Of a DNA stretch of 49,503 nt, positions 34,330-46,258 are shown in pieces. The position numbers were made by a program, and so were the translations under genes. Below the pieces are notes generated by a model. That model saw nothing but the letters and a program-made list of their open reading frames with translations. It was not told where the DNA came from and did not search any database. Position 1 is the first letter of the stretch, and every line of letters begins with the position of its first letter. Source of the DNA: Elusimicrobia bacterium GWB2_63_22 (GTDB lineage Bacteria > Elusimicrobiota > Elusimicrobia > Elusimicrobiales > UBA9959); the NCBI GenBank assembly GCA_001799735.1, contig MGUA01000014.1, forward strand, positions 22,037-71,539. The letters are read 5' to 3'.

Positions 34330-34355
34330 TCCGGGCACACCCGGAAGGGTCTCTC

Positions 34356-34383
34356 AAAAAGGCGCCGCCCCCGGCGCCTTTTT
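34356..34383 (+). terminator. Terminator of the rpsB-proS operon
   Basis: AAAAAGGCGCC, loop GCCCCC, GGCGCCTTTTT: a stem of GGCGCC extended by A-T pairs, with a T-run. Symmetric, so it could work in both directions. Confidence 0.9.
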
Positions 34384-34409
34384 GCCTTTATTTACCCCCC
34401 CGCATTTGT

Positions 34410-34469: not shown

Positions 34470-35285
34470 ATGAAACCCAACGACTTCATTAAATTCCTTG
34501 ATAAGGCCAAGATGTACGACCTTACCCAGCCGCTCAGCATCCACACCCCCCCGTGGCCGAGCTACATGCCGCTGCAGCTGCAGTACTTCAAGCGCATAGC
34601 CGGCGCGCACATGGGCCAGGGCGCCAACGGCCAGATCATGACCACCTCCAACCACGTGGGCACCCACATGGACGGTGAGATCCATTTCTACAGCGCCGGC
34701 CGCACCATCGGCGAGGTGCCGATGAAGGAATGGGCCGGCCAGGCCGTCGTCGTGGACATTTCCAAGGACGTGGGCGACTACGACCTTTATGAGCCCGAGC
34801 TGCTCATGAAGCGCGCCGACATCCGCAAGGGCGACATACTCATCATCAACACCGGCTACCACAAGTACGCCTGGTACGAGAAGGGCACCTGCGACGAGGT
34901 CCGCTACTTCTGCAAGCACCCCGGCCCCGGCCCGCGCTTCCACAAGTGGGCGCTCGACATGAAATTCAAGTGGATAGGCGTGGACTGCGGCTCGGCCGAC
35001 CACCCCATGAACACCATCATCCGCAACTGGCATCCCAAGCTCTTCGTCGAGGCCGAGAACAAGCTGGTCAAGACCTACGGCAAGAAATGGGACGAGATGT
35101 TCCCCACCGAGGAGTTCTACCAGGTTATGCACCTCAAGCTCTTCCCCAAGCGCCTCGTGCACGCCGAGAACATCGGCGGCGAGATAGACAAGCTTTCCAA
35201 CAAGCGCTGCTGGCTGGGCTTCTTCCCCCTCAAGGGCATAGAGCTCGAGTCGGCGATGGGGCGCGTGGTGGCCTGGACCGCCTGA
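34470..35285 (+). CDS. Cyclase-family metal-dependent hydrolase (kynurenine formamidase-like)
   Basis: 271 aa. The family zinc/manganese signature HxGTHxDxxxH is present as NHVGTHMDGEIH (about 61-72). DLTQPLS near residue 17 and the C-terminal histidine region also fit. Relatives hydrolyse cyclic or N-acyl amides (N-formylkynurenine, isatin). First gene of an operon with a three-subunit molybdenum hydroxylase and AllFGH homologs, so ring opening of an oxidised N-heterocycle or ureide is a reasonable inference; the substrate is unknown. No signal peptide: cytoplasmic. Confidence 0.85.
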   Translation: MKPNDFIKFLDKAKMYDLTQPLSIHTPPWPSYMPLQLQYFKRIAGAHMGQGANGQIMTTSNHVGTHMDGEIHFYSAGRTIGEVPMKEWAGQAVVVDISKDVGDYDLYEPELLMKRADIRKGDILIINTGYHKYAWYEKGTCDEVRYFCKHPGPGPRFHKWALDMKFKWIGVDCGSADHPMNTIIRNWHPKLFVEAENKLVKTYGKKWDEMFPTEEFYQVMHLKLFPKRLVHAENIGGEIDKLSNKRCWLGFFPLKGIELESAMGRVVAWTA

Positions 35286-35296
35286 GCCGTCCCTGG

Positions 35297-35326
35297 CCGG
35301 GCCGGGAGCCTAGGCTTCCGGCCCGG
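35297..35326 (+). promoter_or_regulatory. Strong hairpin between the cyclase and FAD-subunit genes
   Basis: A 12-bp stem CCGGGCCGGGAG / CTTCCGGCCCGG (one G-T pair) with a 6-nt loop, followed by ACCATTTC. No T-run worth the name, so processing, stability or attenuation is more likely than full termination. Confidence 0.55.
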
Positions 35327-35350
35327 ACCATTTCTGGAGCGGGAGGATAA

Positions 35351-36244
35351 ATGCCGATAACTGCCGAATTTGACTACGTTAAACCCAAAGACATGGACGA
35401 GGCCCTCCAGGTCTTTTCGCGTTATGGGGACAAGGCCAGGGCCCTGGCCGGGGGCACCGACCTGGTGGTGCACCTCAAGGAAGGCCTGGCAAAACCCGAA
35501 GTAGTGGTGGATATAAAAGCCCTGGCCGAACTTTCCGGCTTCGCCCTGAAGGGAGGCGTCCTGCGCATCGGCGCCCTGGCGACTTTCGCGGAACTTATCG
35601 CCTCGCCTCTCATAAAGTCCAAATTCCCCGTCCTTTGGGAGGCCTCGCTGACCGTCGCCTCCGTAGGCGTGCGCAACCGCGCCACCGTAGCGGGCAACAT
35701 CTGCTCGGCGGTGCCTTCGGCGGACTCGGCGCCGGCCCTGGCCGTCTACGAGGCCGAAGTGCTGGTCCGCGGCCTGAAGGGCTTGCGCCGCATCCCCATC
35801 GGGGAGTGGTTCACCGGGCCCAAGAAGACCGCCCTGCTGCCCGGCGAGCTGGTGACGGCGCTGGAGCTTAAACTGCCGGAGAAAAAACACGGCGGCTGCT
35901 ATATGAAACTCGCCCGCTACGAGGGCGAGGACCTGGCGCAGGGCGGCGTGGCCGTGCTGGCGCTGGCCGACAACACTTACCGCGTAGCCGTCTGCGCCCT
36001 GGGGCCCAAGCCCGGGCGCTGCCCGAAGACCGAGTCGGCGCTGAACGCCAACAAGCTCTCCGACAAGGTGCTGGCGACGGCCAAAGAGGCGATACTGCAG
36101 GAGATCTCCCCTATCGGCGATATCCGCTCTTCTAAAGAGTACCGCCTGCATATGGCGCAGATCATGCTCGAGCGCGCCGCCGGCCACGCCGTGGCGCGGC
36201 TGTTCGGCAAAGGCCCCGCGTACGGAACGGAAAATATAGCTTGA
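35351..36244 (+). CDS. Molybdenum hydroxylase FAD-binding subunit (XdhB/CoxM family)
   Basis: 297 aa. FAD contacts ALAGGTDLVVHLKEG (about 31-45) and VRNRATVAGNICSAVPSAD (about 108-126), then the CO-dehydrogenase flavoprotein C-terminal domain. It passes electrons from the 2Fe-2S subunit to an acceptor. Genes for the 2Fe-2S and molybdopterin subunits are on the same strand; the latter is displaced by about 2.5 kb. GGAGG ribosome-binding site. Confidence 0.94.
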   Translation: MPITAEFDYVKPKDMDEALQVFSRYGDKARALAGGTDLVVHLKEGLAKPEVVVDIKALAELSGFALKGGVLRIGALATFAELIASPLIKSKFPVLWEASLTVASVGVRNRATVAGNICSAVPSADSAPALAVYEAEVLVRGLKGLRRIPIGEWFTGPKKTALLPGELVTALELKLPEKKHGGCYMKLARYEGEDLAQGGVAVLALADNTYRVAVCALGPKPGRCPKTESALNANKLSDKVLATAKEAILQEISPIGDIRSSKEYRLHMAQIMLERAAGHAVARLFGKGPAYGTENIA

Positions 36245-36249
36245 GACCT

Positions 36250-36720
36250 ATGAAAAAACACGATATCCAGTTCAAACTCAACGGCGAGAAGATCGCCATA
36301 ACGGTGGAGCCCAACGACGTGCTGCTGGACGTGCTGCGCGGCCGGCTGGGGATAAAGAGCCCCAAGGTGGGCTGCGACCGCGGCGACTGCGGCACCTGCA
36401 CCGTGCTGCTGGACGGCCGCACCATCCGCTCCTGCCTGGCGCTGGCGGTGGAGGCCGACGGGGCCGAGATCGTCACGCTCGAGGGCGCCAACACCACCCG
36501 CAAGTGGACGCAGCGGCTGCAGAAGAAGTTCCACGAGAAGAACGCCTTCCAGTGCGGCTTCTGCGCGCCGGGCGTCATCCTCTCCGCTACGGAGCTGCTG
36601 GAGACTAATCCCAAGCCGTCGGAGCACGAGATCAAGGAAGCCATCGCCGGCAACCTTTGCCGCTGCACCGGCTACGAGCCGATCGTCGAGGCCATCGCCG
36701 AGACGGTCAAAGGCAAATAA
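36250..36720 (+). CDS. Molybdenum hydroxylase [2Fe-2S] subunit (XdhC/CoxS family)
   Basis: 156 aa from the ATG (an in-frame TTG three codons earlier is less likely). The plant-type cluster uses Cys at about 42, 47, 50 and 62 (GCDRGDCGTC ... SC). The second cluster is in the four-helix domain at about 102, 105, 137 and 139 (QCGFCAPG ... CRC). All eight ligands are present. It begins 5 nt after the FAD-subunit stop. Confidence 0.95.
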   Translation: MKKHDIQFKLNGEKIAITVEPNDVLLDVLRGRLGIKSPKVGCDRGDCGTCTVLLDGRTIRSCLALAVEADGAEIVTLEGANTTRKWTQRLQKKFHEKNAFQCGFCAPGVILSATELLETNPKPSEHEIKEAIAGNLCRCTGYEPIVEAIAETVKGK

Positions 36721-36734
36721 CCGCGGGGGAGCTC

Positions 36735-37088
36735 ATGAAAAAACTATTCCTCGTTCCTTTCGCCGCGGCCGCCCTGGCCGGCTGCTGGTTCATGGGGCAG
36801 CCCAAGGCCGTGGTCCTCGTGACCGACCAGGCCCGCGCCAAGTCCCTGATGACGGCCCTGCAGCTGCAGAACACGGGCCTGCAGGAGTCGGAGATCGCGG
36901 TAAGGCTCGTAAAGAAGAACGATCCCGGAGAACTGCTGGAAGGCCTGAAGTGGGCTGCCGGCAAAGGGGTCAAGGCCATCGGGCTGGACAAGGACGCTTA
37001 TGCGCCCGGCGATCTCCAGATAGAGGCGATCCTGAAAGTCCTGAAAGACGACGGAATCTACGTGGCGGGGGTCGAGTTCGCGGGGTGA
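36735..37088 (+). CDS. Small predicted lipoprotein, family not recognised
   Basis: 117 aa. Signal peptide with lipobox (MKKLFLVPFAAAALAGC). The rest looks like a small alpha/beta fold: strand KAVVLVTD, helix, strand, and the pattern KGVKAIGLDKDAY resembling a reduced type-1 periplasmic-binding-protein lobe; this is an impression only. GC-rich codon use like the flanking genes. It follows the 2Fe-2S gene by 14 nt and is the first of four genes lying between that and the molybdopterin subunit. Confidence 0.7.
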   Translation: MKKLFLVPFAAAALAGCWFMGQPKAVVLVTDQARAKSLMTALQLQNTGLQESEIAVRLVKKNDPGELLEGLKWAAGKGVKAIGLDKDAYAPGDLQIEAILKVLKDDGIYVAGVEFAG

Positions 37089-37098
37089 CGGGGTATTT

Positions 37099-37491
37099 AT
37101 GAAACATTCCTTTCTTTTAGCGATGGCTCTCCTGCTGGCGGCCTGCTCCGTGCCGCAGGGCGGCGCGAAGCGGTCCGGGCCCGGGATCTTCGGGACCATC
37201 GGGCCGACCGCCGACCAGCCCTTCGTGGATGAAATCATAGAAGTTATCACCGAGCCCGCCGGGGCCAAGGTGCAGGTGAACGATGATTTCGCCGGCTACG
37301 CCCCGGTCAGGTATAAGGTGCGCCGCCTGTGGCGCGGCGAGCCCGGCAATATGACGCTCGAGACGGTAAAGATAGATGCCCTGCCGGTAGCCGGCGGCCA
37401 ATGCGCGCAGAGCGGGACCTACGGCCAGTACAACCTCAAAGTCCCCTTCCCCGTGCGTTTCAATATGACCAGTTGTCCCCAGATTCCTTAA
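37099..37491 (+). CDS. Small predicted lipoprotein with a PEGA-like segment
   Basis: 130 aa. Lipobox signal MKHSFLLAMALLLAAC. The segment IEVITEPAGAKVQVNDDFAGYAPVRYKVR resembles PEGA-type beta repeats (P-x-G-A-x-V then G-x-x-P), which occur in surface proteins. Two further cysteines (about 107 and 126) could pair. Its TAA overlaps the next possible ATG by one base. Function unknown. Confidence 0.68.
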   Translation: MKHSFLLAMALLLAACSVPQGGAKRSGPGIFGTIGPTADQPFVDEIIEVITEPAGAKVQVNDDFAGYAPVRYKVRRLWRGEPGNMTLETVKIDALPVAGGQCAQSGTYGQYNLKVPFPVRFNMTSCPQIP

Positions 37492-37502
37492 TGGCGCGGT
37501 TT

Positions 37503-38531
37503 ATGAAAAAACTGTTGTGTTCAGTAATAATTATTTGGACTTCGCTCTCGGCCGTATTTGCGGCTGAGGATTTGACTTTCTATTCGGTGTATAAAGATTA
37601 TAAAGTTCATTTAGGCTACCCTGTTCAATCCGTCCTTTCAGTTTCCCCGCTCGTATATTCAATTCTTGCGTCAACTAACGGCTCACCATTGTTCTCTCCT
37701 GTTCCGGTGTCTTCACAGCCGGTATTGACCTATCAGTTTTTGCCAAGTACGACAAACAACAAGACTGTCGTGAAAATATCAATGCGCCCGGTCTCTGTAT
37801 CCGGGCAGTCTTGGAATACTTGTTTTAATTACGCGTTCTACCCGTCCCACGCTGGGCATCTCCATGGCGGTCCGGGGCAGTTAGGAGGGGGCCCTCCCCC
37901 GTTGGACCTCCAAAGTAGTATTCCGGCGTACGATGTGCAGGGCTCATCTTGTGTCTACGAACTGGCTCAAAACACGGAACTTTCCTGGGTTATGATTTTG
38001 CCTGAGTTTTCCGCGGAAATCAATTTCCTCATAAGTGCTTATGGGGATTTTATGGATTACAAGCGCTTCAAAATTCAGGCAAAAGTGCCTGCTTTGGTGG
38101 CCTTGCCAGATTCCGATCTTTATTCTTCGACCGGTGCCACTAAGGCTCATCCCTTCAATTACTATGCGCGTCAGGATGTGATAGATAAGTTGAAAAACAT
38201 CGCGAAAGAGTATTCTGAAACGTTTCCAAAGGCCTTAGGCCTGGTATTCAATGATATGAGCCTGCCATGGGGAGGTTTATTCGATATCGGAGAGGAAGTT
38301 TTGTGTCCGGATGATAAACCATGTAAGTATTGGGTTGCGCCGCATAGGTCTCACCGGGATGGCTATAACGTGGATTTGAAAACTAATGGTTTGACTGCTG
38401 GCCAGCTTATTCAGATTAAGTCTATCGCGGAAAAGCAGGGCGCTTCTGTTTTGGATGAAGGGAACCATTACCACCTAAATTTCAAGAGCAAGTCGGATAA
38501 GGATTATGACGAGTACAATGTCTGCTATTAA
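37503..38531 (+). CDS. Secreted LAS-type zinc peptidase, M74 (MepA)-like
   Basis: 342 aa from MKKLLCSVIIIW (an in-frame ATG 12 nt upstream is possible), with a signal peptide ending near AVFA. The C-terminal third has NDMSLPWGG, then HRSHRDGYNVDL (HxxGxxxD zinc motif) and NHYHLNF (HxH): the LAS/M74 arrangement of penicillin-insensitive murein endopeptidases. The N-terminal 200 residues match nothing I know. Base composition is clearly AT-richer than the neighbours, with TTT, AAT and GAT codons common, so transfer is likely. It sits inside the molybdenum-hydroxylase operon without obvious functional connection. Confidence 0.75.
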   Translation: MKKLLCSVIIIWTSLSAVFAAEDLTFYSVYKDYKVHLGYPVQSVLSVSPLVYSILASTNGSPLFSPVPVSSQPVLTYQFLPSTTNNKTVVKISMRPVSVSGQSWNTCFNYAFYPSHAGHLHGGPGQLGGGPPPLDLQSSIPAYDVQGSSCVYELAQNTELSWVMILPEFSAEINFLISAYGDFMDYKRFKIQAKVPALVALPDSDLYSSTGATKAHPFNYYARQDVIDKLKNIAKEYSETFPKALGLVFNDMSLPWGGLFDIGEEVLCPDDKPCKYWVAPHRSHRDGYNVDLKTNGLTAGQLIQIKSIAEKQGASVLDEGNHYHLNFKSKSDKDYDEYNVCY

Positions 38532-39171
38532 ACTTCGCAATTGCCTGCCGATGGCGTTGTCGGTTGCACTAATTTTACTTCTCGGTTCCACAAGGAGCGT
38601 TGCGGCCGTTAAACTGGAAAAAAGCGAATATCCTGATGAGAAAAGCATGGTCGCTTTCTCAACTTACTCCGTGCTTGTATCTCCCCAGATGTATGAAGCG
38701 ATCAGTAGCCAGATAAAAGGTTTTGAACTGAGGCCGTTAAGCTATTATCCGACGGAAATCAGGCATGCCTACCCTTTTACTATATTCCAATCCCCTTCAG
38801 CGGTCTTCGGGGATTTTAACGGAGATAAAATTGAGGATGCTGTTTTTATCGGGAACGACAGTAAATACGCTTTTACCATTGTGATACTGTCCAAATATGA
38901 AGTCACGGGCAAAGTACACCAGGCGGTATCGTATTCCGTAAAGGAGTTCTCGAAAACACCTTTAGCAGAGGTGGGTGCCCTGCACGATGCAACCTGGTCA
39001 TACCTGGTTTTACGCGGGAAAGGCAGAATCATGATTCCAAACGATAGTTCAGAGTTGGAGACGTTCGAGCTTAAGAACGACGCCTTTGAAGTCATTACTT
39101 GGGGGAAAGCTGCGGTGATATATTATTTAGGCGAAGCCGACACCTTTAAAAAACTTATTTCAGCCGATTAG
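38518..39171 (+). CDS. Secreted protein of unknown function, AT-rich
   Basis: 217 aa from MSAIKLRNCLPMALS, overlapping the peptidase gene by 14 nt; an ATG four codons upstream is an alternative. N-terminal signal peptide, then VFGDFNGDKIEDAVFIG, a Ca-binding FG-GAP/dockerin-like D-x-N-G-D loop (about residue 100). As AT-rich as the peptidase gene, so probably acquired with it; a partner or cognate protein is possible. No family recognised. Confidence 0.65.
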   Translation: MSAIKLRNCLPMALSVALILLLGSTRSVAAVKLEKSEYPDEKSMVAFSTYSVLVSPQMYEAISSQIKGFELRPLSYYPTEIRHAYPFTIFQSPSAVFGDFNGDKIEDAVFIGNDSKYAFTIVILSKYEVTGKVHQAVSYSVKEFSKTPLAEVGALHDATWSYLVLRGKGRIMIPNDSSELETFELKNDAFEVITWGKAAVIYYLGEADTFKKLISAD

Positions 39172-39232
39172 GCACACAAAAGGTAAAAAACAATTCCCCT
39201 TATCTGGATAATCGTATATTTGAGAGGTAACT

Positions 39233-41632
39233 ATGGACCTTCAGAAACTTAGAACCAAGCCTAAAAAAGGCGCTAAAAACAAAATCGCCGCCGACGGCCT
39301 GGAGCTGGTCGGCAAGTCCGTGCAGCGCATCGACGGCTGGGAGAAGATCAAGGGCGCGGCGCAGTACACCGACGACCTGCAGTTCGGCCCCGGCCTGCTC
39401 TACGCCGCCCTGGTGGAAAGCCCCTGCGCCCACGCCAGGATAAAATCCCTCGATACCTCCGCCGCCGAAAAGCTGGAAGGGGTAGTGAAGGTGGTCACGG
39501 GCCGCAACTTCAAACAGAAGTTCGGGCTGTACATGAACGACCGCTACGTTTTTGCCACCGACACGGTGCGTTTCGTGGGCGAGCAGGTGGCTGCCGTGGT
39601 GGCCACCGATCCCAAGATAGCGCTGCGCGGCGCCGCGTTGGTAAAGGCGGAGTACCAGGAGCTGCCGGCGGTGATGGACCCCGTGAAGGCGCTGGAGAAG
39701 GATTCCCCCCTCGTGCACCCGAACCTCAAGGATTACACGCATGTGCCGTGGTTCTTTCCCAAGCCCGGCACCAACATAGCGCACTGGCGCAAGATCCGCA
39801 AGGGCGACCTGGAGAAAGGTTTTAAAGAAGCCGACCTCGTGCTGCAAGACACCTATATAGTGCCGCGCTACGCGCATTGCGCCATCGAGCCGCACTCCGC
39901 CATCGGCCTCTACGACGCCTCCGGCCGCCTGACCATGTGGACCTCTTCCCAGTCCCCCTTCACGCAGCGCCACGTGTTCGCCGAGACCCTCAAGTCTTTC
40001 GGCCTCAGCCACAAGGACGTGCGCGTCATCAGCACCTACATCGGCGGCGGCTTCGGCGGCAAGGCCGGCGTCACTATGGAGATCATCGCGGCCGCGCTGG
40101 CCATCGCCGTGCCCGGCCGGCCCATCAAGCTGCTGTGGAACCGCGCGCAGGAGTTCTACAATACCTACCAGCGCCTCGGCGTCACCGCCAAGATAAAGAT
40201 GGGCGTGACCAAAGCCGGCAAGATCACCGCGCTGGACTTTAAACTGCACTGGGACGCCGGCGCCTACGTAGAGTACGGCGCCAACGTGGTCAACGCGGCC
40301 GGCCTGTCGGCCAGCGGCCCTTACCGCGTGGACAATATCAGCGTGGACTCGATGTGCACCTACACCAACCTGCCCCCCTGCGGCGCCTACCGCGGCTTCG
40401 GCTACTCGGAGTTTCTCTTCGGGCTCGAGTCGCACATCACCCGCATGGCGACCGAGCTGGGCATAGACCCGGTGGAGTTCCGCAAGCGCAACGCCATCAA
40501 AGAGGGCGACACGCTGCCCTACGGCGCGCATATGAACCCCAACGGCATCCGCGAGGCCATAGAAAGGGTAGAGAAGGAAATTAAATGGGGCGTTAAAGAG
40601 AAGTCTAAAGATCCGAAGAAGGCCATAGGCAAGGCCGTGGTCTGCTTCTGGAAGTCCCCCGCCATGCCGCCCAACGCCAGCTCCAGCGCGTTCCTCAAGT
40701 TCAACGAGGACGGCAGCATCAACATCCTGGTCTCGGGCATGGAGATAGGCCAGGGCCTGCTGACCGTGATGGCGCAGATCGCCGGCGAAGTGCTGGCCAT
40801 GCCGGTGACCAAGATCCGCGTGGAGACGCCCGACACCGACCGCAACCCTTACGAGTGGCAGACCGTCGGCTCCCACGTGACCTGGGGCTGCGGCAACGCC
40901 GTAAAGCGCGCCGCCCTGGAGGCGCGCGAGCGCATCTTCGACCTGGTGCAGCGCGTGCACTGCCTGGATAAGAGCACGCTGTATCTGGCTGACGAGTGCG
41001 TGAAGTGCCGCACCAAGCCGTCCTTCGCGCTGCCGTTCAAAGACTTCGTCATCAACGGTATCCAGGCCGAGGACCATACCTTCAAGGGCGGGCCCATTAT
41101 GGGGTCCGGCGTGTTCATGCCGGAGTTCGCCTCGGCCATCAGCAACCCGGAGACCGGGCAGGGCGGCCATCCCAACGTGCATTATACGACGGGCTCGGCC
41201 GGCATCATCCTGGAAGTGGACCGCGAAACCGGCAAGATGAAGATCAAGAAGGTGGCGCTGGCCGTGGACTGCGGCAAGGCCATCAACCCGGACCTGGTGA
41301 AGGGCCAGGTGGTAGGCGGCCTGCTGCAGGGGTTCGCCACCGTGCTCTACGAGGATATGCGCTATAACGAGAAAGGGCGCCTGCTCAACCCCAACTTTTC
41401 GGACTACAAGATCCCCACGTCCATGGACATGCCCGACGTGGTGGTGCCGATAATAATAGAAGTGGCCCAGCCGGACGGCCCGTTCGGGGCGCGCGGCGTG
41501 GGCGAGCATACCATGATCCCCTGCGCGCCGCTGATCGCCAACGCGGTGGCCGACGCGCTGGGCGTGCGCATCAAGACCATGCCGGTCACCAAAGAGAAGG
41601 TGGCCCTGGCCGTCAAAGCGGCGTCGAAGTAG
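39233..41632 (+). CDS. Molybdenum hydroxylase large subunit, molybdopterin-binding (XdhA/CoxL family)
   Basis: 799 aa. Cofactor motifs YIGGGFGGK (about 269-277), GAYRGFG (384-390, with the Arg used by xanthine dehydrogenases) and the active-site GARGVGEH with the catalytic Glu about 758. The CoxL hallmark AYRCSFR is absent, so it is not a CO dehydrogenase. It hydroxylates a carbon next to nitrogen or an aldehyde; the substrate cannot be read from sequence. A 20-residue basic N-terminal extension precedes the first domain. Followed after 18 nt by the amidase gene. Confidence 0.94.
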   Translation: MDLQKLRTKPKKGAKNKIAADGLELVGKSVQRIDGWEKIKGAAQYTDDLQFGPGLLYAALVESPCAHARIKSLDTSAAEKLEGVVKVVTGRNFKQKFGLYMNDRYVFATDTVRFVGEQVAAVVATDPKIALRGAALVKAEYQELPAVMDPVKALEKDSPLVHPNLKDYTHVPWFFPKPGTNIAHWRKIRKGDLEKGFKEADLVLQDTYIVPRYAHCAIEPHSAIGLYDASGRLTMWTSSQSPFTQRHVFAETLKSFGLSHKDVRVISTYIGGGFGGKAGVTMEIIAAALAIAVPGRPIKLLWNRAQEFYNTYQRLGVTAKIKMGVTKAGKITALDFKLHWDAGAYVEYGANVVNAAGLSASGPYRVDNISVDSMCTYTNLPPCGAYRGFGYSEFLFGLESHITRMATELGIDPVEFRKRNAIKEGDTLPYGAHMNPNGIREAIERVEKEIKWGVKEKSKDPKKAIGKAVVCFWKSPAMPPNASSSAFLKFNEDGSINILVSGMEIGQGLLTVMAQIAGEVLAMPVTKIRVETPDTDRNPYEWQTVGSHVTWGCGNAVKRAALEARERIFDLVQRVHCLDKSTLYLADECVKCRTKPSFALPFKDFVINGIQAEDHTFKGGPIMGSGVFMPEFASAISNPETGQGGHPNVHYTTGSAGIILEVDRETGKMKIKKVALAVDCGKAINPDLVKGQVVGGLLQGFATVLYEDMRYNEKGRLLNPNFSDYKIPTSMDMPDVVVPIIIEVAQPDGPFGARGVGEHTMIPCAPLIANAVADALGVRIKTMPVTKEKVALAVKAASK

Positions 41633-41650
41633 ACTTTTAGGAGAACAACA

Positions 41651-42412
41651 ATGAAAGTAGCCCTCTGCCAGTACGACATCAAGTGGGAAGACAAGGAAGC
41701 CAACAAGCGAAAGATCGCGGACCTGCTGTCGGACTGCAAATGCGCCAAGGAGATAGACTGGCTGGTCTTCTCCGAGATGACCCTCTCAGGGTTCACCATG
41801 AACACGGCCGTGTCCGAACTTACGGACTCCGACCGCGCCTTCTTTACCGGCCTCGCCGCCGAGCACAATATCAACATCTCCTACGGCGGGGTGGAGAAGG
41901 GCTATAACAACCTGATCACCCTGGACCGCAAGGGCAACCGGGTGAATACCTACTCCAAGATCCACCTCTACGCCTTCGGCCAGGAGGACAAGTACTACAA
42001 GGCCGGAACCAAACAGGAGCTGTTCGAGCTGGAAGGCCTTAAAGTGATGCCGGCCGTCTGCTTCGACCTGCGTTTTCCGTACCTCTTCTGGAACCAGGCC
42101 CCCGCCGCCGACGTCTACGTGGTGATAGCCGCCTGGCCCATGCGCCGCTCCGAGCAGTGGATGACGCTGCTGCGCGCGCGGGCCGTGGAGAACCAGGCCT
42201 ACTGCATCGGCGTGGACCGCGTCGGGCTGGAAGGCAAGGTGGAATACTCCGGCAACTCCATGTGCTACGACCCGCTCGGCAAGACCGTCATCGACTCCGG
42301 TACGGCGGAGGGCATCTACATGGCCGAGGCCCCGCTGGACAAAGACCTGGTAAAGAAGACCCGGGAGCGCTTCCCCTTCCTGGGAGAAAGGAAAGTATTT
42401 CCCTGGCAATAA
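41651..42412 (+). CDS. Nitrilase-superfamily amidase (omega-amidase-like)
   Basis: 253 aa carbon-nitrogen hydrolase with the triad Glu42 (FSEMTLSG), Lys103 (YSKIHLYAFG) and Cys137 (AVCFDLRFPY). The CFDLRFP context is that of omega-amidase-like members acting on alpha-keto acid amides or small dicarboxylic acid amides. In this operon it could release ammonia from an oxamate-like or ureido product; this is inference. AGGAG ribosome-binding site. Confidence 0.9.
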   Translation: MKVALCQYDIKWEDKEANKRKIADLLSDCKCAKEIDWLVFSEMTLSGFTMNTAVSELTDSDRAFFTGLAAEHNINISYGGVEKGYNNLITLDRKGNRVNTYSKIHLYAFGQEDKYYKAGTKQELFELEGLKVMPAVCFDLRFPYLFWNQAPAADVYVVIAAWPMRRSEQWMTLLRARAVENQAYCIGVDRVGLEGKVEYSGNSMCYDPLGKTVIDSGTAEGIYMAEAPLDKDLVKKTRERFPFLGERKVFPWQ

Positions 42413-42416
42413 GACA

Positions 42417-43238
42417 ATGGACCTTATCTCTTACGGCGACAGCATTCCCGAGGGCGATTACCGCCTGCACTCGGCTTTCGCCAACGCCATCAACTTCCGC
42501 AAGGGCAAGGTGATAGTTTCGCTGGTCCCGCCGCGCGCCGGCGCGGGCCCCTTCAACGTAGTGCTCAAACAGCTGCCCCCCGGGGCCAAACGCCTGCGCT
42601 CCACCCGCTTCTATTTCTACATCGACGAGAACCGCCTGCGCAAGGAGCCCGAAGCCCGGTATTCCTCCGGCGTGCCGAATACCGACGCGGCGCCCGAAGC
42701 GGTGCAGGCGGGGGTGGAGGCGCTGGCCGTTATCCTCGCCCGCCGCTCCCCCCCGAAGAGCCTGGCTTTTATCTTCGACCCGGCGCTGGAAAAGGATTTC
42801 TCCCGCGTGTTCGAGCGGCACCTGCTGGCGCGGTTCAAGAAAGCCCTGGGCTTCTTTAAGGCCGGGGACTACGTCCACGGCGTAAAGACCATGCGCGGCC
42901 TGGGGCTGGGGTTCACCCCCTCCGGAGACGATTTCATCAGCGGCCTGCTGGCGGGTTTTAATTTCGCGCGCATAGGCCTGCGGTTCGACACCGGGGCGAG
43001 GATAGAACAGATCTTCTTCTGCGCCGAAGGCAGCAACCTGGTCTCCAACGCTTTCCTGCGGTGTTCCTACGAGGGCAAAGTGAACTCCCAGGTGCGGCGC
43101 CTGATGAAGGCCCTCGGCGGCGGCGACCCTGCCGAACTGGAAACCGCGGCGCAGCGGGCTCTGGAGAAAGGGCATACCTCGGGCGCGGATTTCTGCGCCG
43201 GGCTGGTTTTCGCGCTGCGCGAAGTCTTCGCGTCCTGA
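42417..43238 (+). CDS. allH: DUF2877 protein, AllH (YlbF)-like carbamoyltransferase component
   Basis: 273 aa. The two conserved family motifs are GLGLGFTPSGDDFISG (about 161-176) and GHTSGADFCAGL (about 252-263). In E. coli the equivalent YlbF (AllH) works with FdrA (AllF) and YlbE (AllG) as oxamate carbamoyltransferase, which releases carbamoyl phosphate from oxalurate. The two partner genes follow directly here. Starts 4 nt after the amidase stop. Confidence 0.87.
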   Translation: MDLISYGDSIPEGDYRLHSAFANAINFRKGKVIVSLVPPRAGAGPFNVVLKQLPPGAKRLRSTRFYFYIDENRLRKEPEARYSSGVPNTDAAPEAVQAGVEALAVILARRSPPKSLAFIFDPALEKDFSRVFERHLLARFKKALGFFKAGDYVHGVKTMRGLGLGFTPSGDDFISGLLAGFNFARIGLRFDTGARIEQIFFCAEGSNLVSNAFLRCSYEGKVNSQVRRLMKALGGGDPAELETAAQRALEKGHTSGADFCAGLVFALREVFAS

Positions 43239-43261
43239 CGCGGCACTATAACGGAGAACAT

Positions 43262-44815
43262 ATGATAAAAACTGTGATCAAGAAAGGCGCGTATTTCGAT
43301 TCCGTCTCGCTGATGCAGGTGGCCAAGAAGCTCAACTCCGTTCCCGGCGTGCTGGACTCGGCCGTGGTGATGGCGACGAAAGAGAACAAGGGTATCATCA
43401 AGGCCTCCGGCCTGCTGACGCCCGAGATCTTAAAAGCGGGAGATAGCGACCTGGCCATAGCGGTCAGCGCCAAAACCCCCGCCGCCGCCGAGGCCGCCTT
43501 TAAGGCCGCCGACGAACTTCTCAACAGGAAGCCGGCGCAGCCGTCCGGAGGGGCGGACCGTAAGGCCGCCGGCCTCGACGACGCTTTCAAGTCTCTCGAG
43601 GGCGCCAACCTGGCCGTCATCTCCGTAGCCGGTCGCTTCGCCGGGGCGCTGGCCGCGGACTGCCTGGAGAAAGGGCTCAACGTCATGCTGTTCTCCGACA
43701 ATATCCCGGTGGAGACCGAAGTGGCGCTTAAGAAGGCCGCGGTAAAGAAAGGCCTGCTGGTGATGGGCCCCGACTGCGGCACCGCCATAATCAACGGCGC
43801 CCCCATAGCTTTCGCCAACTCCGTGCGCCGCGGCAATATCGGCGTGGTAGCCGCCGCGGGCACCGGCCTGCAGGAAGTGACCACCTTGATCTCCAACGAG
43901 GGCGCGGGCATCTCGCAGGCTATCGGCACCGGCGGCCGCGACGTTAAACTGGAGGTGGGAGCGCTCACTTTCATCCAGGCCCTCAGGATGCTGGCCGCCG
44001 ACCCCGGCACAGAGGTGATACTGCTGGTCTCCAAGCCCCCCCACCCGGCGATACTTAAAAAGATCACCGCCGAGATTAAAAAAATAGAGAAGCCGGTGGT
44101 AGCCGTCTTCCTGGGCGGAGAGATAAAGGAAAAGCTCAAAGAGAACTTCTACCCGGCCAAAACCCTGGAAGAAGCCGCCTATAAGGCCGCCTGCCTGGGC
44201 CGGGGTTGGGCGATAGCCAAGGCCCGCGAGATGATCTACGACATGAACCTGAAATCGCTCGCGCTGGCCAAAAAGGAAGCCTTGAGGAAAAAGAAAACCT
44301 CCTGCCTGCGCGGCCTGTTCACCGGCGGCACGTTCGTCAGCGAGGCCCAGGTGATACTGCCGGAGATGCTCGGCGCGGTGCTCTCCAACGCCCCGCTCGA
44401 CAAAAAGAACAAGCTGAAGAACTCCATGCAGCTCTCGGGCCACGCGGTGATAGACCTGGGCGAGGACGAGTTCACCGTCGGCCGCCCCCACCCGATGATA
44501 GACTTCTCCCTGCGCAACAAGCTGATAGTCTCCGAGGCCAAGCGGCCGGAGGTCTCGGTGCTGCTGCTGGACCTGGTGCTGGGTTACGGCGCCAACCTGA
44601 ACCCTCTCGAGGATATCATGCCCTCGCTCGTAGAGGCCTTCATCCAGAACAAGGAGCTCTCTATAGTGGCCTCGGTGACCGGCACCGAAACCGACCCGCA
44701 GGCCCGCTTTAAAGTGGTGAAGGCGCTGGAGGCCGCCGGGGTGCTGGTGATGCCTTCCAACGCCGGGGCCTGCCGCCTGGCCGGCGAGATAATCCGTATG
44801 GCGGCCAAGAGGTAA
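43262..44815 (+). CDS. allF: FdrA-like protein, AllF carbamoyltransferase component
   Basis: 517 aa from MIKTVIKKGAYFDSV with GGAG ribosome-binding site. It resembles the alpha subunit of succinyl-CoA synthetase: MGPDCGTAIINGAPI and GTGGRDVKLEVG in nucleotide/CoA-fold positions, a central GLFTGGTFVSEAQ, and a C-terminal DLVLGYGANLNP. FdrA proteins are not proven ligases; E. coli FdrA (AllF) is reported as part of oxamate carbamoyltransferase. Adjacent to AllH and AllG homologs. Confidence 0.88.
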   Translation: MIKTVIKKGAYFDSVSLMQVAKKLNSVPGVLDSAVVMATKENKGIIKASGLLTPEILKAGDSDLAIAVSAKTPAAAEAAFKAADELLNRKPAQPSGGADRKAAGLDDAFKSLEGANLAVISVAGRFAGALAADCLEKGLNVMLFSDNIPVETEVALKKAAVKKGLLVMGPDCGTAIINGAPIAFANSVRRGNIGVVAAAGTGLQEVTTLISNEGAGISQAIGTGGRDVKLEVGALTFIQALRMLAADPGTEVILLVSKPPHPAILKKITAEIKKIEKPVVAVFLGGEIKEKLKENFYPAKTLEEAAYKAACLGRGWAIAKAREMIYDMNLKSLALAKKEALRKKKTSCLRGLFTGGTFVSEAQVILPEMLGAVLSNAPLDKKNKLKNSMQLSGHAVIDLGEDEFTVGRPHPMIDFSLRNKLIVSEAKRPEVSVLLLDLVLGYGANLNPLEDIMPSLVEAFIQNKELSIVASVTGTETDPQARFKVVKALEAAGVLVMPSNAGACRLAGEIIRMAAKR

Positions 44816-44818
44816 ATT

Positions 44819-46213
44819 ATGAAACTTTTCGAAACCGAACTCAGGGTGATCAATATCGGGCTGGAATCTTTCAGGCAGGGCCTGAACGATTGCGGCGTGA
44901 AGAGCGTGCAGGCGCAGTTCAAACCGCCGCTCTCGGCGGAGGCTGGGCTTTTTGCCAAGGCGGCCAAACATTCGGCGCGGATAGCCAAGGCCAACGGGAA
45001 AGCCCTGGGCCGGATCCTCGCCGCCAAGCCGGCGCTGGTCGGCATGGGCATAGCTCTCGACGTTATTCCCGGCATGAAGCGGGACCTGATCCTGCACGCT
45101 GGCCCTCCCGTTACCTGGGAGCGGATGTGCGGCCCCATGCGCGGCGGCATCATGGCCGCGCTGATGTACGAGGGCCTGGCCGCCAACCCCAAGGAGGCCG
45201 AAAAGCTGGCCGCCTCCGGCCGGATCAAGTACGAGCCCTGCCACGAGCATAACGCCGTGGGGCCGATGGCCGGCATCATCTCGGCCTCGATGCCCGTCTT
45301 CATCGTCAAGAACGAGGAGCACGGCAACTTCGCCTATGCCACGCAGAACGAGGGCCTGGGCAAGGTGCTGCGCTACGGCGCCTATGGTCCCGAGGTGATA
45401 GAGCGCCTGAAGTGGATGGAAAAGACTCTTTACCCGACGCTGAAGGCGGCTATAGAGTCGCTGGGGCGCATAGACCTGAAGACCATGGTGGCGCAGGCGC
45501 TGCACATGGGCGACGAGGTGCATAACCGCAACCGCGCCGGCACGTCGCTGCTCTATCGCGCCCTCGCCCCCGCCGTGATCAAGACCTGCAAGGACCCGGA
45601 GACGGCGGCGAAGTCCCTGGAGTTCATCAACGGCAACGACCATTTCTTCCTGAACCTCTCGATGGCGCTGTCCAAGGCCTCGCTCGACGCCGGCCGCGGC
45701 GTGAAGGACTCCAGCGTGGTCGTGGTAATGGCCCGCAATGGCACGGACTTCGGCGTGCAGCTCTCCGGTACCGGCGGGCGCTGGTTCACCGGCCCGGCCC
45801 AGGTGCCGGACGCGCTGTATTTCCCCGGCTACTCCAAGGCTGACGCCAACCCGGACATAGGCGACTCGGCCATTACGGAGACCAACGGCCTGGGGGGCTT
45901 TGCCATAGCGGCGGCGCCGGCCATTGTGCAGTTCGTGGGCGGCAAGGCCGCGGACGCGCTGAACTATACGCTGGCGATGTACGAGATCACGGCGGGCGAG
46001 AGCAATATCTACAAGATCCCGGCTCTGGACTTCCGCGGCACGCCGACGGGTATAGACGTGATAAAGGTGGCGCGTAGCGGCATCCTGCCGTTCATCGATA
46101 CCGGCGTGGCCCACAAGAACGCCGGCGTGGGCCAGGTAGGCGCCGGCGTCCTCAGCGCCCCCCCCGAGCCCTTCACCAAAGCCTTCGAATACTTCGCCAA
46201 GAACTTGAAGTAA
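44819..46213 (+). CDS. allG: DUF1116 protein, AllG (YlbE)-like carbamoyltransferase component
   Basis: 464 aa. DUF1116 landmarks: VTWERMCGPMRGGIMAAL, CHEHNAVGPMAGIISASMP, HMGDEVHNRNRAGTSLL, and ITETNGLGGFAIAAAPAIV. Third of the allH-allF-allG triad, 3 nt after allF and followed by a terminator. A carbamate kinase gene, the usual partner that turns carbamoyl phosphate into ATP, is not in this window. Confidence 0.88.
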   Translation: MKLFETELRVINIGLESFRQGLNDCGVKSVQAQFKPPLSAEAGLFAKAAKHSARIAKANGKALGRILAAKPALVGMGIALDVIPGMKRDLILHAGPPVTWERMCGPMRGGIMAALMYEGLAANPKEAEKLAASGRIKYEPCHEHNAVGPMAGIISASMPVFIVKNEEHGNFAYATQNEGLGKVLRYGAYGPEVIERLKWMEKTLYPTLKAAIESLGRIDLKTMVAQALHMGDEVHNRNRAGTSLLYRALAPAVIKTCKDPETAAKSLEFINGNDHFFLNLSMALSKASLDAGRGVKDSSVVVVMARNGTDFGVQLSGTGGRWFTGPAQVPDALYFPGYSKADANPDIGDSAITETNGLGGFAIAAAPAIVQFVGGKAADALNYTLAMYEITAGESNIYKIPALDFRGTPTGIDVIKVARSGILPFIDTGVAHKNAGVGQVGAGVLSAPPEPFTKAFEYFAKNLK

Positions 46214-46234: not shown

Positions 46235-46258
46235 AAAAGCCCCGCAAAGGGGCTTTTT
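46235..46258 (+). terminator. Terminator of the catabolic operon
   Basis: AAAAGCCCC, loop GCAAA, GGGGC then TTTTT: a standard intrinsic terminator 22 nt after allG. Confidence 0.92.

Follow-up and report, generated by a model that had tools for sequence, protein, structure and literature searches.

The 49,503-nucleotide window analysed here (G000:C14:22037-71539) comes from a 3.06 Mb, 95% complete Elusimicrobiota genome, Elusimicrobia bacterium GWB2_63_22, and carries on its + strand, at 34470-46213, an operon that probably specifies the oxidative breakdown of uracil by an anaerobic route that conserves energy. The analysis established which genes the operon contains, their synteny, their co-occurrence and the families to which they belong; from these we infer all of the substrates and reactions. 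G-, L- and C-numbers denote genomes, loci and contigs respectively, G000 being the source genome, and positions without such a label are those of the window; statements on the source genome as a whole come from protein-family searches.

Pfam and NCBIfam searches confirmed, on the + strand and in position, all of the genes that an earlier reading of the letters alone (the sequence-only reading) had named. The first (34470-35285; Pfam 111 bits) encodes a PF04199 metal-dependent cyclase/hydrolase, the predicted ring opener and proposed barbiturate hydrolase. It is followed by the flavin adenine dinucleotide (FAD) subunit (35351-36244; PF00941 160 bits, PF03450 54 bits) and the 2Fe-2S subunit (36241-36720; PF01799 103 bits, PF00111 32 bits) of a molybdenum (Mo) hydroxylase and, beyond an insert, by the molybdopterin subunit of this enzyme, proposed to be a uracil C6 hydroxylase (39233-41632; PF02738 250, PF20256 227 and PF01315 100 bits). 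A nitrilase-superfamily (CN_hydrolase) amidase, the proposed malonamate amidase (41651-42412; PF00795 123 bits), then precedes three carbamoyltransferase subunits: AllH-like (42417-43238; PF11392 80 bits, above cut-off), FdrA/AllF (43262-44815; NF004760 495 bits, cut-off 433) and AllG (44819-46213; PF06545 326 bits, above cut-off).

The sequence-only reading had joined the Mo hydroxylase, the ring-opening hydrolase, AllFGH and the amidase in one pathway, and this part of it stands. Its substrate series, hydantoin to parabanate to oxalurate, is not supported: the operons of relatives lie instead beside genes for uridine phosphorylase, cytosine deaminase, a UraA-type permease and a malonamidase-like amidase, with which the series uracil, barbiturate, ureidomalonate and malonamate fits better. 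In this series the Mo hydroxylase would act at C6 of uracil (uracil + H2O to barbiturate + 2[H]) and the PF04199 cyclase would hydrolyse barbiturate to ureidomalonate, which AllFGH would cleave with phosphate to malonamate and carbamoyl phosphate. This step would be the same acyl-urea phosphorolysis as that of oxalurate in E. coli, with a substrate longer by one CH2. The amidase, of the nitrilase type here and a malonamidase-like signature amidase in other phyla, would hydrolyse malonamate to malonate and NH3, and a carbamate kinase encoded elsewhere would convert carbamoyl phosphate and ADP to ATP, CO2 and NH3. A class III coenzyme A (CoA)-transferase would probably activate malonate in the relatives. 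We lean towards the view that this anaerobic pathway yields ATP from uracil, has not been described before and has spread both vertically and horizontally over many candidate phyla.

Conservation and enzymes of the gene set

The co-conservation by which the sequence-only reading had wished its proposal to be judged was found: the gene set was linked in relatives from the genus to many other phyla, in varying order. Because it recurs across the genus, the family, the class and many phyla in different orders, this linkage is not due to chance. Among 341 Elusimicrobiota genomes, AllG (PF06545) was present in 69 and the cyclase in 68; both were found in 63, AllG alone in 6, the cyclase alone in 5 and neither in 267. 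Neighbourhoods from 39 Elusimicrobiota genomes showed the same genes together in an order that depended on the family, cyclase-FAD-FeS-Mo-amidase-AllH-FdrA-AllG in the window's family and AllH-FdrA-AllG-cyclase-FAD-FeS(-Mo) elsewhere in its class. That the set was retained though its order was shuffled argues for shared function rather than frozen ancestry. The cyclases were 69-91% identical to the window copy in the sample aligned, and the deepest Elusimicrobiota copies 50-57%. In the latter (L066:8192, L067:10669, L068:2647, L069:2284) a phosphoribosyltransferase-like gene (~323 amino acids) was seen by eye between FdrA and AllG.

A scan with the cyclase alignment against one genome per species gave 270 relatives, the best 80 of which were kept. 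These included Riflebacteria, Cloacimonadota, Caldisericota, Hydrogenedentota, KSB1, Fermentibacteria, Zixibacteria, Myxococcota, Bacteroidota, Verrucomicrobiota/Lentisphaerae, Bdellovibrionota and others. The operon gene set is common to ~20 labelled groups, mostly of uncultured bacteria, several of the labels being automatic bin names of metagenome-assembled genomes that are not trustworthy singly. Of the 66 loci with at least 3 kb of upstream sequence, 58 had AllG no more than 6 kb from the cyclase, and the Mo subunit was present in 39 of the 56 loci with at least 4.5 kb of downstream sequence. In L059-L062 (family f15), FAD and 2Fe-2S genes adjoin the cyclase and no Mo subunit gene was seen in the stretch retrieved around it.

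Genes of pyrimidine metabolism adjoin the operon in several of these relatives. A uridine phosphorylase gene adjoins that of the cyclase, on the same strand, in L107, L123 and L128, lies one gene off in L121 and again adjoins it in four further Elusimicrobiota genomes (G236, G332, G335 and G336). The product scored 285 bits with TIGR01718 in L123 (cut-off 280) and slightly below the cut-off, 266-277 bits, in the others, and is clearly not a purine nucleoside phosphorylase (~105-135 bits for that family). In L107 and L165 the cyclase has a cytosine-deaminase-like amidohydrolase beside it (388 and 391 bits, cut-off 438), giving a consecutive CodA-cyclase-Udp arrangement. Downstream in seven Cloacimonadota loci is a UraA-type permease with 359 bits for the uracil permease model versus 223 for xanthine permease; against solved structures it gave 256 bits with UraA and 70 with the uric acid-xanthine permease. 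The NCS2 permease of the source genome is likewise RutG/UraA-like (371 and 354 bits versus 202 for PbuX). A Glu/Gln (E/Q) residue of the permeases was rejected as a discriminator between uracil and purines, since E also stands at this position in the aligned chain of the uric acid-xanthine permease.

The cyclase belongs to the PF04199 superfamily by its Pfam score and by the metal-binding HxxxHxD motif (HVGTHMDGEIH), and its metal motif HVGTHMDGEIHF was near invariant in the alignments. Its predicted structural model, of low confidence around residues 23-77, matched at E < 0.001 only PF04199-type folds, including isatin hydrolase and kynurenine formamidase. These two enzymes share the fold and the metal-binding motif with the cyclase, and would share its predicted amide-opening chemistry, but are only 15-19% identical to it over the structural matches, and its score with the kynurenine formamidase model TIGR03035 was 49 bits, below the equivalog cut-off of 223. 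The AtzD-family barbiturase model (PF09663) matched nothing in the source genome and likewise matched no control genome.

The Mo hydroxylase has the three-subunit architecture of xanthine dehydrogenase (XDH), with FAD, 2Fe-2S and Mo domains all above Pfam cut-offs. Its Mo subunit carries the motifs GGGFGGKAG, AYRGFGYSE and GVGEHTM and retains the catalytic Glu and the equivalent of Arg880; GGGFGGKAG was present in 59 of 63 homologues, the remaining four giving no pattern match. Molybdenum cofactor genes, which the sequence-only reading had suggested looking for, are present in the source genome as MoaA (327 bits, cut-off 284) and MoaC. They lie at G000:C35:14000-26000 (L173) beside genes that by eye are MoeA, a TupABC-type (tungstate) transporter and a tungsten aldehyde:ferredoxin oxidoreductase, and these tungstate-type neighbours leave some doubt about which metal the Mo hydroxylase has in its cofactor.

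Compared with the E. coli proteins, AllF has 41% identity over 521 amino acids, AllG 45% over 414 and AllH 34% over 129. Acyl-urea phosphorolysis by E. coli AllFGH has been demonstrated with oxalurate (PMC11326118). Unlike the E. coli oxamic transcarbamylase cluster, the source-genome operon has neither carbamate kinase nor allantoin genes beside AllFGH. The absence of allantoin genes noted in the sequence-only reading holds for the window, and a model search for allantoinase over the whole source genome gave only sub-cut-off matches to other cyclic amidohydrolases. The carbamate kinase that was expected elsewhere in the genome was located, in a divergent form, on another contig (G000:C8:20750-23090; L033:7736-10084), followed by a threonine-synthase-like gene; it is 366 amino acids long and has an insert relative to TIGR00746. 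Nearly all members of the window's family have a similar kinase, and canonical carbamate kinases above the cut-off are present in other Elusimicrobiota. Outside the window's family, 24 of 26 operon-bearing genomes encoded carbamate kinase versus 6 of 256 operon-free ones (relatedness uncorrected).

The amidase of the window has the nitrilase-superfamily fold, with the E, K, C triad visible in the alignment. Its closest NCBIfam model is the YafV amidohydrolase NF007757 (146 bits, below the equivalog cut-off of 249). Across the loci the amidase slot is held by three groups, the window-type CN hydrolase, the L052/L081-type CN hydrolase and a signature amidase, which suggests that an amide product has to be hydrolysed. 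In 18 loci, mainly of Cloacimonadota and Bacteroidota, a class III CoA-transferase is followed by the signature amidase, which among solved structures is nearest to malonamidase E2 (170 bits versus 150 for GatA); malonamate had been predicted as the amide before this match was found.

Further genes accompany the operon in some relatives. In G332, genes resembling those of succinyl-CoA ligase (beta and alpha) and a CN-hydrolase amidase gene (L164:2050-4893) are located a few genes from the cyclase-Udp pair in convergent orientation, possibly for malonate activation. A module of a GNAT-fold gene, a thiolase-like gene and a ChsH2/DUF35-type OB-fold gene was seen beside the operon in many phyla (L138:3709-5648, L144:2690-4982, L075:10993-13300 and ~10 others). 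The thiolases are mostly 73-80% identical among loci, and in 15 of 15 copies checked the nucleophile Cys was missing (ENGPASGASA), which recalls Ltp2-type aldolases or decarboxylases. The GNAT gene of these other phyla was dropped as a candidate malonyl-CoA decarboxylase, as its predicted model matched only generic GNAT folds, and it was not found in the source genome.

Uracil and alternative substrates

Several findings weigh against a uracil route. Uridine phosphorylase had no match in the source genome, and operon-linked uridine phosphorylase and cytosine deaminase occurred only in other lineages. The carbamate kinase of the source genome is divergent, scores below the family cut-off (253 bits, cut-off 358) and is encoded outside the operon; inside the window's family carbamate kinase is nearly universal and uninformative and is not associated with the operon (43/5/8/3, not significant). 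PF06463, the C-terminal domain of MoaA, gave no match in the near-complete genomes G107, G108, G110, G113, G120, G122, G140 and G153, all of which have AllG and the cyclase, members of the window's family among them; unless their MoaA is divergent or lies in assembly gaps, the Mo subunit there would be without cofactor. The remaining contrary findings concern the substrate itself: purine-type permeases of a few operons, a CoA-transferase closest to oxalate enzymes, a hydantoinase-like gene and the known range of AllFGH.

A purine route resembling that of clostridial xanthinase is unlikely. The Mo enzyme would interconvert hypoxanthine, xanthine and urate, xanthine would be opened in its pyrimidine ring by the cyclase, and from the resulting ureido-imidazole carboxylate AllFGH would form carbamoyl phosphate. 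A xanthinase pathway that works anaerobically has been described for Clostridia and Bacilli (PMC12507026). The Mo subunit falls in the XDH superfamily, a PbuX (xanthine)-like permease was found in three Caldisericota loci (236 bits versus 133 for uracil permease) and an AzgA-like permease in the L052/L073 operon. The enzyme nevertheless scored below every XDH equivalog cut-off (XdhA 508 bits, cut-off 780; XdhB 205, cut-off 310; XdhC 172, cut-off 217), and the residue after GGxFGGK was Ala in all 59 Mo-subunit homologues with a readable motif. We take this to be the position of the purine-binding Glu of xanthine oxidase (bovine Glu802), to which E. coli XdhA is presumably an exception. A purine route would need an amidase at no step, yet one is present and is drawn from any of three groups. 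The neighbourhoods had no recognisable imidazole-degradation genes, and the uridine phosphorylase, cytosine deaminase and UraA-type permease genes are pyrimidine genes.

The series proposed in the sequence-only reading, in which a cyclic ureide such as hydantoin would be converted to parabanate and oxalurate, AllFGH would release oxamate and carbamoyl phosphate, and oxamate would be hydrolysed to oxalate, is quite improbable. The neighbourhoods had recognisable genes for pyrimidines and none for hydantoin or allantoin, and the alternative type of amidase resembles malonamidase. In its favour, oxalurate is the sole proven substrate of AllFGH, the known action of which is limited to oxalurate/oxamate (PMC11326118). 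The class III CoA-transferase of 19 loci has the CoA:oxalate enzyme as its best match, although at 374 bits it lies below the cut-off of 522, and the source genome has an orphan D-hydantoinase/dihydropyrimidinase-like gene (G000:C31:94355-95740; L174:9856-11241; 370 bits, cut-off 393). This gene stands alone, with no recognisable pyrimidine, ureide or pathway genes nearby.

We regard as very improbable a reductive use of the operon, with the Mo enzyme acting as a reductase like XdhD on urate in E. coli, or with the cyclase opening a dihydropyrimidine to a ureido acid from which AllFGH would form a beta-amino acid by phosphorolysis. XdhD offers a precedent in which one cluster also contains a carbamoyltransferase and carbamate kinase (PMC12507026); the XDH superfamily includes reductases, and one of these, 4-hydroxybenzoyl-CoA reductase, is the top solved relative. 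Beta-ureido acids, however, would leave the amidase without an amide, and the neighbourhoods had no recognisable dihydropyrimidine dehydrogenase. Least probable is that the genes are linked but AllFGH has ceased to form carbamoyl phosphate, either transferring another group or leaving the ureido acid to be hydrolysed for nitrogen without ATP. AllF and AllG resemble the E. coli proteins along the greater part of their sequences, and outside the window's family the presence of carbamate kinase follows that of the operon, even though AllF is succinyl-CoA-synthetase-like, AllH is weakly conserved and the operon has no carbamate kinase.

Boundaries and insert of the operon

Terminator-like stems flank the operon on both sides. 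Upstream are the housekeeping genes rpsB, tsf, pyrH and others to ispG and proS, and at the boundary between proS and the operon is a stem-loop (34355-34384, +) with a 13-pair stem and a T-rich tail, identified by consensus match only. The stem-loop ending the operon (~46235-46258, +; AAAAGCCCC-GCAAA-GGGGCTTTT followed by TC) was found by direct reading of the sequence and is absent from the list given by the terminator scan. Downstream of it are a major facilitator superfamily gene on the opposite strand and then rimP.

The four small signal-peptide open reading frames (ORFs) between the 2Fe-2S and Mo subunit genes (36735-39171, +; ORFs at 36735-37088, 37099-37491, 37503-38531 and 38518-39171) had gone unmentioned in the sequence-only reading. 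Two of the four start with a lipobox signal peptide, and none matched Pfam. The last two have a third-position GC content of ~0.5 compared to ~0.87 in the surroundings, while relatives of the first two occupy the same position in some members of the genus and family. The third ORF shows by eye an M15/LAS-peptidase-like pattern (HRSHRDGYNVDL ... GNHYHLNF). The insert is probably unrelated to the pathway, and its ORFs were rejected as pathway parts because they lack a family match and are of atypical composition, and because the inserts of other relatives are different; L098 and L103 are operon loci interrupted in this way by different genes.

Comparison with known systems

If the proposed route is correct, an oxygen-independent, energy-conserving branch would be added to the known pyrimidine routes (oxidative, reductive, Rut and URC). 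Genes would be gained for a Mo-type uracil dehydrogenase, a barbiturate hydrolase unrelated to barbiturase and a ureidomalonate carbamoyltransferase that forms malonamate, and with them candidates for oxidative uracil catabolism outside the AtzD/barbiturase family. The role of AllFGH would be broader than allantoin breakdown, the scavenging of nucleotides in anaerobic sediments and digesters would be linked to malonate and ATP, and the use of RNA bases would be hinted at for uncultured Cloacimonadota, Riflebacteria, Caldisericota and Elusimicrobiota. Among the open-access papers searched, no description was found of this route or of an anaerobic barbiturate pathway with carbamoyl phosphate; subscription papers may exist.

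Three systems share parts of the gene set. The allantoin operon of E. coli, with AllFGH and AllK (PMC11326118, PMC9843812), has homologues of AllF, AllG and AllH and a predicted yield of carbamoyl phosphate and ATP in common with the window, where allantoinase, allantoate amidohydrolase and ureidoglycolate dehydrogenase are absent and a Mo hydroxylase, a PF04199 hydrolase and an amidase are found instead. The reductive uric acid pathway of E. coli and C. difficile (XdhD, YgfK, SsnA, HyuA, YgeW and carbamate kinase; PMC12507026) is likewise anaerobic and also joins an XDH homologue to ring opening, to a carbamoyltransferase and to carbamate kinase, but its ring openers are of PF01979, its YgeW (PF00185) and these ring openers are unrelated to AllFGH and the cyclase, and its substrate is a purine. 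The allFGHK clusters with biuret hydrolase in comammox bacteria and ammonia-oxidising archaea (PMC12625717) also place AllFGH outside an allantoin operon, and pyrimidine products were suspected there too, owing to a cytosine permease. Those clusters have biuret and triuret genes, and the text of PMC12625717 names neither a cyclase nor a xanthine dehydrogenase.

The closest chemistry is that of the classic oxidative pyrimidine route, rare and known from aerobic actinobacteria, in which uracil/thymine dehydrogenase, barbiturase and ureidomalonase act in turn (Hayaishi and Kornberg 1952 and Soong et al. 2001-2002, summarised in PMC3758960). Barbiturate, ureidomalonate and malonate would be common to both routes. 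The actinobacterial ring opener is of the AtzD/barbiturase family, whereas that of the window operon is of PF04199; ureidomalonate is hydrolysed to urea in the former, whereas phosphorolysis to carbamoyl phosphate, and thence ATP, is proposed here; and the former is found in aerobes, whereas operons of the window type occur in lineages of mostly anaerobic habit. The operon, a combination for which the open-access papers searched gave no description, would represent oxidative pyrimidine breakdown carried out by different enzymes and coupled to energy conservation.

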